Source: Roseateles sp. XES5 (GTDB lineage: Bacteria > Pseudomonadota > Alphaproteobacteria > Rhizobiales > Rhizobiaceae). Taken from it: 18,961 nucleotides of DNA. The position numbers and the translations under genes are program-made. Every line of letters begins with the position of its first letter. Position 1 is the first letter of the stretch. Of the stretch, positions 1,678 through 14,895 are shown in pieces. The stretch covers positions 1 through 18,961 of the forward strand of contig NZ_CP084756.1 in assembly GCF_020535545.1 (NCBI RefSeq), written 5' to 3'. The notes beneath the pieces were generated by a model. The model made no database searches and was not told the DNA's origin. It worked only from the letters and a program-made list of their open reading frames with translations.

Positions 1678-1947
1678 AAAGACCCCTCCCCTCGCATCTG
1701 CCATTGTAACCGACCTCGCCGAGGCGCAAGGGTGCTTGGACTTATAGTCCCCGCCCATGGGTGATAGTTGAGTGAGCCGCCCATCTGCGGCTTGAAAATT
1801 TCTATAGCGCCAATGTTAATGTTAGCATTAATGTTAGCGCTATAATTAGGTCCGTACATTTTTCCCGCATTGCGGGAGAATCGGCCGCTGGATATTGCAA
1901 CCGAATTGGTAACTGCTACGCTCGCCATGTCATGAGGAGAGCAGGCT
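1678..1947. promoter_or_regulatory. Leader region of the zinc-finger gene, with hexamer array 1
   Basis: This 270-base gap holds hexamer array 1 (1803-1850), a TATAAT at 1841-1846 at the array's right end that could be a -10 box for the zinc-finger gene, and a small hairpin CCCGC-ATT-GCGGG at 1864-1876. No good -35 box is visible. No gene is supported. Confidence 0.45.
1803..1850. repeat. Hexamer array 1 (RYTARY type, 8 units), candidate parS/operator
   Basis: Contiguous 6-base units from 1803: TATAGC, GCCAAT, GTTAAT, GTTAGC, ATTAAT, GTTAGC, GCTATA, ATTAGG. Four match RYTARY exactly, a pattern that is its own reverse complement. Outer TATAGCGC (1803-1810) and GCGCTATA (1837-1844) form an inverted pair. 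Its reverse complement closely matches array 2 over about 40 bases. It lies in front of the zinc-finger gene. Confidence 0.75.
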
Positions 1948-2130
1948 ATGGCAATGCGAAAATGCGAAAAGTGCAGCGGCTACGGCGTTATTGATTGCCC
2001 GCATTGTGGCGGCGGTGGTTGGTTCAGCAAAACGAATGGTGATTCCGTCCGTTGTCAGAGTTGCGGGAAGCGTGGCAATGCGCCGGGCCAGTTTTGCTGC
2101 GACAGGTGCGATGGGAAAGGCGAGCTTTAG
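1948..2130 (+). CDS. Small DnaJ-type zinc-finger protein
   Basis: A 60-residue protein with four cysteine pairs: CEKCSGYG, CPHCGGGG, CQSCGKRG and CDRCDGKG. This is the CxxCxGxG spacing of the DnaJ cysteine-rich domain, which binds two zinc ions, here without J-domain or substrate-binding parts. Stand-alone proteins of this kind occur on plasmids and phages and their role is unknown; binding of unfolded protein or nucleic acid is possible. The start is firm: GAGGAGA at 1934-1940 lies 7 bases before ATG 1948. The stop codon overlaps the stop of the convergent gene 2127-2549. Hexamer array 1 lies about 100 bases upstream, so the gene may be controlled together with parA. Confidence 0.75.
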   Translation: MAMRKCEKCSGYGVIDCPHCGGGGWFSKTNGDSVRCQSCGKRGNAPGQFCCDRCDGKGEL

Positions 2131-2549
2131 GCGGTAATCGCCACAAGCGCCGCCTGTAGCCACGCGTTATCACGGTGCGCCTGGTCGGCCGAGGAGTAGA
2201 CCCGCAGATGCCGGACATCCTGGCCGTCGGGAGCTTTCTCCAACCAGACCAGGGTGCCGGCAGTTTCGAGGTCGGCTTTCACCGCCCAGGGGAAGGCCAG
2301 CCATGCGGCCTCCCCTTCTATGTCCAGTTTCAAGGTTAGCGGGGCGTTCGGGGCATATTGAGGGGCAAAGAGCCGCGCCATGTCCCGCCAAAGGCCACTT
2401 GCGAGGTAGATCTTGAAGGCAGCGGGAGAGGCAAATGTTTGTGCCGCTACGGCTTTCGGGTTGGCGATGAACTGGCGCGGGGTGTCGAGTCGTTCGCCTA
2501 GAACTACCCCTTCAGGCATTTGGATCTCGGGGAACAGCACGCGCATCAT
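2127..2549 (-). CDS. Conserved-looking protein of unknown function
   Basis: I do not recognise this 140-residue protein. It begins MMRVLFPEIQMPEGVVLGER and contains a GLWRDMARLFAPQYAP stretch followed by strands with aspartate, glutamate and tryptophan (LKLDIEGEAAWLAFPW, TLVWLEKAPDG). It has no signal peptide or membrane segment and looks like a small cytoplasmic alpha/beta protein. Start choice is uncertain: ATG 2549 and 2546 are adjacent, ATG 2606 would add 19 residues, and neither has a well-spaced Shine-Dalgarno sequence (GGAGG lies about 17 bases before 2549). The stop at 2127-2129 overlaps the stop of the convergent zinc-finger gene. Hexamer array 2 lies upstream at 2644-2697, probably in its promoter region and shared with the parA side. 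Confidence 0.6.
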   Translation of the reverse strand: MMRVLFPEIQMPEGVVLGERLDTPRQFIANPKAVAAQTFASPAAFKIYLASGLWRDMARLFAPQYAPNAPLTLKLDIEGEAAWLAFPWAVKADLETAGTLVWLEKAPDGQDVRHLRVYSSADQAHRDNAWLQAALVAITA

Positions 2550-2643
2550 GGGGCAATAGTAGGCCCCCTCCCCCGGAGGGGACAAGCAAACTGCCTCCCG
2601 ATTCATCGTCGGTTTGCTTCTGCTGACGCGTCGAGTTCGCGGC

Positions 2644-2697
2644 GCTATTCCTAGCGCTAACATTAGCGTTAGCATTAACATTAGCGCTATAATTGCC
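2644..2697. repeat. Hexamer array 2 (RYTARY type, 9 units), candidate parS/operator
   Basis: Contiguous units: GCTATT, CCTAGC, GCTAAC, ATTAGC, GTTAGC, ATTAAC, ATTAGC, GCTATA, ATTGCC. Five match RYTARY exactly and the others differ by one or two bases. Outer AGCGCTAA (2653-2660) and TTAGCGCT (2681-2688) are inverted. It lies upstream of the minus-strand unknown gene and faces parA. Confidence 0.8.
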
Positions 2698-2857
2698 ATC
2701 AGAGATGGCCTGTGCCTCGCAGAATGTGGCTGCCGCGCCATACTCCTCACGTGGTAAATTCCGTGCGTCCCCCCTCCCCTTCCCTGCCGCAACAGAGCGT
2801 TACGGAGGAATTGTAACAATAATTCAATACGTTGGTGCTTGTGGCGTTATTTATGGT
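2698..2857. other. Spacer between hexamer arrays 2 and 3
   Basis: No gene is supported here. One plus-strand frame is open from 2693 into parA, but it lacks a ribosome-binding site. Pyrimidine-rich 2770-2785 and GTAACAATAATTC near 2813 are the only notable composition changes. Confidence 0.4.
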
Positions 2858-2935
2858 GCTAACATTAACGCTAACGCTAATGTTGGCGTTAAAATTAGCG
2901 TTAATGCTATCTTCAGCATTAACGCTTATGTTGCC
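2858..2935. repeat. Hexamer array 3 (RYTARY type, 13 units), candidate centromere and parA operator
   Basis: Contiguous units: GCTAAC, ATTAAC, GCTAAC, GCTAAT, GTTGGC, GTTAAA, ATTAGC, GTTAAT, GCTATC, TTCAGC, ATTAAC, GCTTAT, GTTGCC. Seven match RYTARY exactly and most others by one change. It ends 10 bases before the parA ribosome-binding site, so it should cover the promoter. TTGGCG (2883-2888) and CTATCT (2907-2912) could be -35 and -10 boxes with an 18-base spacer. The equivalent in pSM19035 is the 7-bp heptad array bound by omega. Confidence 0.8.
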
Positions 2936-2956
2936 CTCACAATTAGAGGAATCGCC

Positions 2957-3691
2957 ATGTTCACCATCACCTTCGCCAACCCCAAGGGCGGCTCCGGTAA
3001 GACGACCTCCGCCATGATTCTGGCGGAGCAGATCGCCTTGGCCGGCGCGTCCGTCGCCATACTCGACTGCGACCCCAACCTAAATATCCAGCAATGGGCC
3101 AAGCAGCGCCAGGAGCAGGGGAGGGCGGTTCCCTTCGCCATCCACGCACCGCAGAACGAGGAAACGTTCCTCGATGCCTACGACGCCATCACCGACACGG
3201 TGGATTATCTCATCATCGACCTGGAAGGCACCGCGTCCACGCTCGTCACCTACGCGGTCAGCCGCTCCGACCTGGTGGTTATCCCGTTCGAGCCGACCCC
3301 CATGGAAGCACGGCAGGCGGCCCGCGCCGTCCAGCTCGTCCGCCAGACCGGCCGCGCCATGAACAACCGGACGATTCCGCACGCCCTGGTGCTGACCCGC
3401 GTCAACGCCGCGTTCCAGACCAGCGAAGAAAAGGACATCCGCAAGGAAATGGTCGGCGCGAAGATGCCGGTGCTGGACACCGGCATTGTGCGCCGCGCCG
3501 CCTATACCCGCATTTTCCGCGACGGCTTCCTGTTGAGCGAACTGCTTGAACAGGGCCGTGACGAGGTGAAGAACAAGACGGCTTCCCAGCAGGAGCGCAT
3601 TTTGAACCCGCTGGAAACCGCTATCGAGAACGCCAAGGCTTTCACGCAGGAAGTCGTGAACCAGCTGGGCCAACAGGAGGCCGCCGCATGA
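2957..3691 (+). CDS. parA: ParA-family partition ATPase (short, type Ib-like)
   Basis: A 244-residue Walker-type ATPase that should bind the nucleoid in its ATP form and move plasmid copies apart with a centromere-binding partner. Residues 9-17 are the deviant Walker A PKGGSGKTT with signature lysine 10 and catalytic lysine 15; LDCDPN follows near residue 37 (A' motif) and YLIIDLEG near 80 is Walker B. No N-terminal helix-turn-helix is present, which marks the short ParF/delta/VirC1-like type that leaves DNA binding to the partner. The start at ATG 2957 is chosen because AGAGGA sits at 2945-2950 and the Walker A lies at the usual distance. An in-frame extension upstream would translate the hexamer array and is rejected. 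The stop overlaps the start of the next gene (ATGA, 3688-3691), so the two are translationally coupled. Confidence 0.93.
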   Translation: MFTITFANPKGGSGKTTSAMILAEQIALAGASVAILDCDPNLNIQQWAKQRQEQGRAVPFAIHAPQNEETFLDAYDAITDTVDYLIIDLEGTASTLVTYAVSRSDLVVIPFEPTPMEARQAARAVQLVRQTGRAMNNRTIPHALVLTRVNAAFQTSEEKDIRKEMVGAKMPVLDTGIVRRAAYTRIFRDGFLLSELLEQGRDEVKNKTASQQERILNPLETAIENAKAFTQEVVNQLGQQEAAA

Positions 3692-4023
3692 GCTACGGAT
3701 TCACCACAGACGACGCACCCGAGGTAGCCGCCACGCCCGTTGCCACAGGCATTAAACTACCGCCCGTCCGGAAGAGCGCGGCCGTGCCGGCAGCGCCAGC
3801 CGGCGACATCGCCCGCGCCGTGCAGGCCGGCCAGGAGCTGGGTTTCGTGTCCCGCGACACGGGCGCGCGCCGGAAGCCCGGTCCTAAGCGCAAAGAAGCG
3901 CAGGACCGACTTACCGTCACAGGCCCGAAGCGCGTCATTGACCGCCTGAAAGCCTACAGCGACGGGACAGGGCTTTCCTACTGCGAAGCCATTGAGGCGC
4001 TGCTAGACGCGGCAGACCACTAA
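3688..4023 (+). CDS. Ribbon-helix-helix partition partner (ParG/omega-like)
   Basis: A 111-residue protein whose last 45 residues have the ribbon-helix-helix pattern: strand DRLTVTGP, helix KRVIDRLKAYSDGTG, turn, helix SYCEAIEALLDAA. Such dimers insert paired strands into the major groove of short repeats. The first 65 residues are Pro/Ala/basic-rich and probably disordered (RRKPGPKRK near 60-68), as in ParG, whose flexible arm stimulates the ParF ATPase. Overlapping parA by four bases, it is the expected centromere-binding protein and autorepressor, and the hexamer arrays are its likely sites. That binding is inference from gene order and fold. No HTH_ParB-type partner is present elsewhere. 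Confidence 0.8.
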   Translation: MSYGFTTDDAPEVAATPVATGIKLPPVRKSAAVPAAPAGDIARAVQAGQELGFVSRDTGARRKPGPKRKEAQDRLTVTGPKRVIDRLKAYSDGTGLSYCEAIEALLDAADH

Positions 4024-5452: not shown

Positions 5453-5557
5453 CCGTATCTCGCCGACATTTTTCCGTACATCACCGACGACAACCCGTAC
5501 TTTACCGACGACAAACCGTTTTTCGCCGACGACAAACCGTACATCAGCGACATGGCA
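5453..5557 (+). repeat. Five tandem 21-bp iterons
   Basis: Units start at 5453, 5474, 5495, 5516 and 5537 and each begins CCGTA or CCGTT and contains CGCCGAC or CACCGAC with GACAA. The first and last are the most diverged (ATTTTT and ATGGCA tails in place of GACAAA). Confidence 0.93.
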
Positions 5558-14229: not shown

Positions 14230-14895
14230 ATGCCCCTTGTAGACATCCTTTCTCCTGACCGCTTCAGCACATACCTAGGGTGGGCGGAAGGTGATGCATC
14301 CACGGCGGAGCGTCTGTACAGCTATAACATCCAGCTATCTGCGGACTTCTATGCCTCCATGCACATGCTGGAAGTCGCCCTGCGGAACAAAGTGGACGAA
14401 GCCCTAACCAATATTCATGGTACGGGGTGGATGCATAGCACCTTGGTGCTGACAGAAGCCTATCAACAGGGGTGCGTGGCGCAGGCACACAGTACTCTCC
14501 TGCGGGACGGCAAGGCGGCTACACACAGTCAAATGGTGGCGGAATTGAACTTCGGATTCTGGAGTTCGGTGTTCGGCCGTTCCTCGAATCACCTTTGGGG
14601 GCCACTGCGCGCCATTTTCCAGACCAACGGTCTGAAGCGCACCACCATCGCGCAGAAGCTGCGCGACCTGCGGCGGTTGCGGAACCGTATCGCCCATTAT
14701 GAGCCGATTTTAGCCCAGCCCATCGCCACTCTGCATCAAGACATCCTGACCATGACCGCCTGGATGTCGGTGGACGCCTCGGCGTGGATTACGACCCATT
14801 CCACCATCAACTATCCCGCGACACCGATAATCATCAAGAATGCTCAAGGTGTTTCCATTTTCGACAAGGCTCTGACCGGACACCTCCCCAACTAA
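14230..14895 (+). CDS. Abi-like HEPN protein (probable abortive-infection RNase)
   Basis: A 221-residue protein of the Abi-like (Abi_2/AbiD-AbiF type) HEPN group. Residues 40-60 (FYASMHMLEVALRNKVDEAL) form the first HEPN helix with the family's ALRN motif. RLRNRIAHYEPI contains the RNase signature R-x4-H at arginine 151 to histidine 156, followed by the usual HYEP. The region FGFWSSVFGRSSNHLW matches the family's conserved aromatic stretch. Members arrest growth or cleave RNA on phage infection, so a defence role is likely but inferred. No separate antitoxin gene is adjacent. The start ATG 14230 lacks a clear ribosome-binding site. The gene converges on the nuclease fragment ending at 14908. 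Confidence 0.8.
   Translation: MPLVDILSPDRFSTYLGWAEGDASTAERLYSYNIQLSADFYASMHMLEVALRNKVDEALTNIHGTGWMHSTLVLTEAYQQGCVAQAHSTLLRDGKAATHSQMVAELNFGFWSSVFGRSSNHLWGPLRAIFQTNGLKRTTIAQKLRDLRRLRNRIAHYEPILAQPIATLHQDILTMTAWMSVDASAWITTHSTINYPATPIIIKNAQGVSIFDKALTGHLPN

Follow-up and report, generated by a model that had tools for sequence, protein, structure and literature searches.

Six-base-pitch arrays before parA as the probable centromere of a ParA–ribbon-helix-helix partition system on alphaproteobacterial plasmids

What binds the runs of six-base units that precede parA in a stretch of Roseateles sp. XES5 DNA (contig NZ_CP084756.1), and what purpose do they serve? The stretch analyzed, hereafter the window, comprises 18,961 nucleotides; its first 8000 bases, the part compared, match at 100% the complete circular plasmid NZ_CP084760.1 of Shinella sp. 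XGS7, a window position being the NZ_CP084760.1 position plus 5. A first-pass annotation had interpreted three hexamer arrays in the window as a possible hexad centromere of a pair formed by ParA and a ribbon-helix-helix (RHH) protein. Our analysis supports this interpretation: judged from sequence, and with a probability of roughly 0.8, the pair is a type Ib ParA–RHH partition system whose array of 6-bp pitch is the centromere, and probably also the operator, bound by the RHH partner. Binding and centromere function are what we infer; an operator role is most probable, on the same grounds, at least in the Rhodobacterales branch of the family.

The three arrays are real, lie where they had been described and keep a single phase each. 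Array 1 (1803–1850) contains 8 in-phase units, of which 4 are strict RYTARY (1815–1838), and array 2 (2644–2697) contains 9, of which 5 are strict (2656–2685). Array 3 (2846–2929) adjoins parA, is the copy conserved in relatives and represents the proposed centromere and operator. None of the three is assigned to a strand, and their scores with a position weight matrix (PWM) are 32.8, 32.1 and 31.4, respectively. Read in phase, array 2 runs GCTATT CCTAGC GCTAAC ATTAGC GTTAGC ATTAAC ATTAGC GCTATA ATTGCC, and array 3, read over 2858–2935, runs GCTAAC ATTAAC GCTAAC GCTAAT GTTGGC GTTAAA ATTAGC GTTAAT GCTATC TTCAGC ATTAAC GCTTAT GTTGCC. The units had been called uninterrupted RYTARY; the phase indeed holds throughout, but array 2 has only 5 strict units among its 9 and array 3 only 7 among its 13, the others fitting at 4–5 of 6 letters. 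Likewise, RYTARY is its own reverse complement as a class, but single units often are not. What stays constant is a T-A (or TG/CA) step recurring in 6-base phase, not RYTARY itself.

Arrays of this kind lie far beyond chance, because all 19 window matches to four RYTARY units (at most 3 mismatches in 24 bases) fall within the three arrays, 200 dinucleotide shuffles of the window yielded none, and the strict 24-base pattern is confined to the same arrays across the whole 5,810,938-base genome. Array 3 by itself showed period 6 with a z of 7.2, reached in 0 of 200 shuffles. Arrays 1 and 2 share a right-hand stretch, TTAGCGCTATAATT, and carry TATAAT hexamers near their ends, that of array 1 lying at 1841–1846 and terminating it; a search for sigma-70 promoters over 1700–3000 of the window found none. 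Among the scored loci the Shinella plasmid alone has three arrays, although many loci comprise only a few kilobases of their replicon.

To place these arrays in a wider family, we collected relatives of the partner protein. A tblastn search found them on 14 plasmid records, the window's own included, and scanning genome contigs with a profile returned 44 loci (numbered with an L below), mostly from Rhodobacterales with some from Hyphomicrobiales; a few bins were labeled Verrucomicrobia, Sphingopyxis or Erythrobacter, possibly through mis-binning. The parA start was located in 42 of the 44, L029 and L037 being dropped for lack of a parA motif in a stretch whose match lies near the contig end. 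L082, whose stretch starts too near the partner gene to include parA, was also dropped, as were L073 and L075, which duplicate L020 and L016. Hexad runs that read in phase stand before parA in nearly every relative locus. In Sulfitobacter pontiacus the array reads TCTAAC TATATC TTTATC TATAAC TTTAAA GTTATA GATAAA GATATA gttgac, and a Cohaesibacter bin has 18 in-phase TA units. The RHH partners of array-bearing Rhodobacterales relatives are only ~37–52% identical.

Aligning 388 hexads from 35 loci gave the palindromic consensus GTTAAC, whose core is T-A (TA in 304 units, TG in 44, CA in 30) and in which information peaks at the two core bases; RYTARY therefore gives way to a GTTAAC-like unit with a YR core as the unit of the family. 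Arrays have ~11 units (range 5 to 19), in odd and even numbers, and leave 5 to 104 nt between their end and the start codon. We scanned 66 loci (444,033 bases) with a PWM of five hexads at a threshold of 20, the maximum in 20 shuffled windows being 13.1. An array preceded parA in all 55 scorable family loci, and in five of these it came in two pieces, so the absence of arrays upstream of homologous parA genes, which would have counted against the first-pass interpretation, was not what we found. Elsewhere in the 66 loci only arrays 1 and 2 of the window matched. The scan is partly circular, as the PWM was built from 35 of the same loci.

We also determined the period of TA steps, counted at the best phase for periods 4 to 14 and compared with 200 dinucleotide shuffles. 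After removal of 20 near-copies from 56 upstream regions, period 6 was the best in 34 of the 36 non-redundant regions, so that the six-base pitch sought on other plasmids is kept there. The exceptions were L058, where period 10 nearly tied with 6, and L015, a more distant pair (partner 40% identical over part of its length) without hexads. Period 7 was best in 0 of 36 loci, which sets the family apart from the heptads of pSM19035. In five fresh loci period 6 won every time; L079 and L081 are near-copies of earlier loci, and L074, L080 and L083 are not. Random 160-mers drawn from the loci with the arrays left in reached 7 in-phase TA steps in 41 of 2000 cases.

Loci with related ParA proteins and other partners served as controls, and none of nine favored period 6 (L015 belongs to both sets). 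Eight of these count, since L066 is uninformative: its tested stretch lies inside an annotated gene and its true upstream region lacks a TA step. In autocorrelation, lags of 6, 12, 18 and 24 led in the five family loci tested, whereas the top lags in controls were 11 or 18 (L010, L062, L063), 4, 11 and 7 (L061), 7 (L067), 26 and 11 (L015), 30, 10 and 20 (L064) and 10 (L065). A positive control, the IncX1 plasmid locus L084 with ParF/ParG, showed lags of 8, 16, 24 and 32; in the stretch adjoining its parA, period 6 was absent. No clear pitch emerged from L085–L087, three further ParA loci retrieved alongside; L087 gave z 3.6 at lag 16 and 1.7 at lag 6, and L086, further upstream, 2.9 at lag 12 and 2.2 at lag 6. 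A second repeat layout is seen in L010, L061, L063 and L067, with GGTAGC/GCTATC-like words and TA steps that often alternate 4 and 7 bp (lags 4, 7, 11 and 18). Among sister loci, L077 led at lag 11, no parA motif was found in L078, and L076 led at lags 29, 6 and 12. Upstream of its parA, the 6- and 12-bp lags of L076 (z 3.3 and 3.2) come with a differing word, GATATGCATATA, perhaps the same pitch with a changed specificity.

Within these samples the array occurs in a clade of mostly alphaproteobacterial loci, immediately upstream of parA. Prevalence was low: scoring only the best candidates of a first pass, we found relatives in 4 of 199 genomes of the family at E 0.001 (counting the window's own genome and L015, which lacks hexads), in 7 of 397 of the order at 1e-6 (own and L076–L078 counted) and in 1 of 385 of the class at 1e-8 (own only); no relative was found in viral contigs. 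L079 (PP438431.1), labeled Synechococcus phage Ssp-JY41, carries a Rhodobacterales-type parA, partner gene, hexad array and RepA-like gene, and may be a Rhodobacterales-type plasmid filed as a phage.

The array follows the ParA–RHH pair, not the replication gene: plasmids L010 and L067, with a window-like replication gene but another partition pair, lack hexads, and the array thus does not travel with repA. On a tree of 36 ParA proteins, from which L062, L063, L065 and L066 are omitted because the start-motif pattern missed their ParA, hexad and non-hexad ParA separate by one change, with branch support of 73/63, which is not strong.

The window's parA (2957–3691, + strand), preceded by a probable ribosome-binding site AGAGGA (2945–2950, +), encodes a 244-aa Walker-type partition ATPase of the VirC1/ParA family, with the deviant Walker motif NPKGGSGKT at its N-terminus and matches to Pfam PF07015, PF13614 and PF01656. 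The best of these is PF07015 (VirC1, 75 bits), and the NCBIfam VirC1 model gave only 77 bits against a cut-off of 313. VirC1 and VirC2 of Ti plasmids act in T-DNA transfer at overdrive. The partner gene (3688–4023, +), whose start codon overlaps the parA stop, encodes the 111-aa small protein proposed to bind the array, and the gene order is the same in annotated relatives. ParA lacks an N-terminal DNA-binding domain, as fits the small ParA of type Ib systems, and both lengths fall within the reported type Ib ranges of 192–308 aa for ParA and 46–131 aa for the partner (PMC3235114).

No Pfam or NCBIfam family matched the partner. Its AlphaFold2 model has helices at 81–94 and 98–110 within an RHH-like C-terminal domain (~residues 70–111) and a low-confidence N-terminus; the best structural matches were CopG and Arc, and the matches also included MazE, AmrZ, MatP and ParG. 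The model thus lends support of modest strength to an RHH-type fold, the identity first proposed for this protein. By analogy with ParG, the N-terminal tail, with its conserved YGF motif and GFVSR-like block, may touch ParA. Small ParA, small downstream partner, RHH domain and repeat array before the operon, the marks of a type Ib ParA–RHH system, are all present.

How might such a system work on a 6-bp pitch? In the mechanism that we propose, RHH dimers would coat the array side by side, one per palindromic hexad, each centered by its two-fold axis on the T-A step. Once filled, the array would repress transcription of the parA–RHH operon and would also be the centromere, its clustered N-terminal tails engaging nucleoid-bound ParA–ATP and stimulating the ATPase. 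Arrays 1 and 2 would then be extra centromere or operator copies in the window plasmid. In pSM19035, several promoters carry heptad arrays. The ATPase step is modeled on that plasmid, where activation is reported to need at least four contiguous heptads (PMC9499535). On straight B-DNA a 6-bp step corresponds to 206 degrees and 20 Å (240 degrees for 7 bp), which would arrange dimers as two rails on opposite faces that drift by 51 degrees per 12 bp. With an assumed radius of 18 Å, dimer centers would lie ~41 Å from the n±1 and ~44 Å from the n±2 neighbor, compared with 39 and 57 Å at 7 bp. One dimer per hexad therefore looks sterically possible and would give two rails. The resulting segrosome, with one dimer per 6 bp, four near neighbors for each dimer rather than the two of a heptad array and a lattice repeat of ~84 bp, is a tentative model to which we give slightly less than an even chance.

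The strongest competitor keeps the same system and lets each dimer span two hexads (12 bp, one per subunit) in the manner of RelB, with dimers along one side of the DNA that may slide between two registers; we consider it the less likely arrangement, though a serious one. RelB itself is described as using four 6-bp repeats as two 12-bp half-sites, with two dimers on one face (PMC2812701), and the TA steps of L061 and L063 alternate 4 and 7 bp as if a dimer used two TA half-sites. Within the hexad arrays, however, direct similarity between units is no higher at lag 2 (3.13) than at lags 1 and 3 (3.26 and 3.30), giving no sign of a 12-bp register, and arrays are odd or even in length, without alternation in their spacing. 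Lag 1 has the lowest inverted similarity (2.93), in clear agreement with neither dimer model. Junctions between units are self-complementary less often than expected (z −6.8), but we base no mechanism on this pattern, which seems to vary by branch among loci that are themselves related. Indel lengths between related arrays peaked at 6, 12 and 18 and were left unused, as 511 dependent pairs and self-similar repeats make them unsafe.

It is unlikely that the arrays are an operator only, with the centromere elsewhere. What speaks for this is the promoter-like element built into many of them: in 43 of 55 loci a TTGAC, in phase as one hexad, begins 35–38 nt before the parA ATG. These loci are nearly all of the Rhodobacterales branch, and the window is among the 12 without it. 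A −10 box 17 bp downstream, which some loci suggested, proved weak on scoring, at least 4 of 6 letters fitting at spacers of 16–18 in only 13 of the 43. With the −10 side so weak, we call TTGAC only −35-like, and leaderless transcription from the parA ATG is a guess from distance; should TTGAC be a −35 box, it would be hidden once the array is coated. The ~11 units (5 to 19) nonetheless probably exceed what repression needs, and the small ParB of described type Ib systems is reported to bind the operon promoter region (PMC3235114). As only a GTTAAC-like repeat was sought, a separate centromere elsewhere could go unseen.

Binding by the replication initiator or a host factor, or no binding at all with DNA shape as the explanation, is improbable: this is AT-rich, T-A-step-rich DNA beside a replication gene, but the hexads are missing from the plasmids with similar repA and another ParA–partner pair, the strict four-unit pattern does not recur in the rest of the genome, and the window's 21-bp repeats after repA (5474–5551) are different from hexads. 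Neutral, microsatellite-like expansion of a 6-bp word can practically be set aside, since units differ within an array but their phase persists in at least two orders, even though five TATAAC units in a row in L042 indicate that units can be copied.

The ParA–RHH centromere that we favor would resemble several described systems and coincide with none of those compared. The delta/omega system of pSM19035 shares the small ParA, the RHH partner and contiguous short repeats without spacers, but its repeats are reported as oriented 7-bp heptads, where the hexad consensus is palindromic (PMC9499535). TP228 ParF/ParG, as far as its description goes, combines a ParA-type ATPase, a flexible-tailed RHH partner, an array before the operon and autorepression; its parH consists of tetramer boxes with AT-rich spacers, in line with lag 8 in IncX1 L084, and not of 6-bp hexads (PMC7308502). 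Its ~8-bp box spacing is unlike the multiples of six that lead in the five family loci tested for lags. The first-pass annotation knew of no described six-base system of this type. That statement needs qualifying, as RelB of Escherichia coli is an RHH protein that recognizes four 6-bp repeats and tolerates no half-site spacing (PMC2812701), but relO is not a centromere. The relO site is a toxin–antitoxin operator of four repeats, bound by two dimers of 12 bp each, with the core [A/T]TGT[A/C]A and without a ParA (PMC2812701). Here, the partner gene neighbors parA instead of relE, and arrays have ~11 units. Paracoccus pMARC3 is also alphaproteobacterial, with ParA, a small ParB and a predicted parS in the parA promoter region; compared by its description, it has three non-identical 13-bp repeats and no contiguous hexads (PMC3832669).

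Searches of an open-licence library found no described 6-bp RHH centromere, and a precedent may exist in work on pTAR, parH, omega or pB171. The Agrobacterium plasmid pTAR (Rhizobiaceae), studied by Kalnin et al. in 2000, reportedly combines a small ParA and small ParB with upstream repeats that act as centromere and operator; L064 from A. vitis, which we guess to be of the pTAR type, shows lags of 30, 10 and 20, not 6. The par2 system of pB171 has ParA, an RHH ParB and direct repeats, parC1 and parC2, on both sides of the operon, maybe of 6–7 bp, and may be a closer precedent than the other systems compared.

The plasmid annotation lists parA, a hypothetical protein, the replication initiator RepA, HicA/HicB, a MobQ relaxase and a Tn3-family transposase. 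Downstream of repA, 3.7 copies of the 21-bp repeat CCGTACATCACCGACGACAAA (5474–5551) are probable replication iterons. An unannotated tRNA lies at 1603–1677 (+; Rfam RF00005, 57 bits), with an anticodon loop read as 8 bases, CTTCCTAC, for which ARAGORN gives the four-base anticodon tcct. A similar stretch is present in 12 plasmid records, the window's own included; the copy on Neorhizobium pNCHU2750e also reads tcct, and a Mesorhizobium copy, one base shorter, reads Arg tct. The tRNA is a possible plasmid-borne reader of the four-base codon AGGA. About 100 bp after array 1, an unannotated 60-aa open reading frame (1948–2130, +) has several CxxC motifs and is zinc-ribbon-like, with weak Pfam matches under the cut-off. 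A hypothetical protein at 14230–14895 (+) has weak Abi_2 and HEPN similarity, also under Pfam cut-offs.

What would be new in this system, as far as sequence can tell, is the spacing of 6 bp, a unit that is palindromic and a TTGAC inside the array; otherwise it would work like the heptad arrays of pSM19035. A natural 6-bp family, set beside the 8-bp ParG type and related loci whose lags are ~11 or 10 bp, forms a ready comparative series for the question of how repeat pitch shapes an RHH partition complex and its activation of ParA. The arrays also offer a rule for reading sequence: GTTAAC-like hexads arrayed shortly before parA, with TTGAC in one branch, mark a likely centromere on plasmids of a group whose partner gene still bears the label hypothetical protein. 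If the two-rail segrosome is true, it would add a new quaternary architecture to those of partition complexes, one that alphaproteobacterial plasmids conserve and that carries, in one branch, a −35-like box as one of its rungs.
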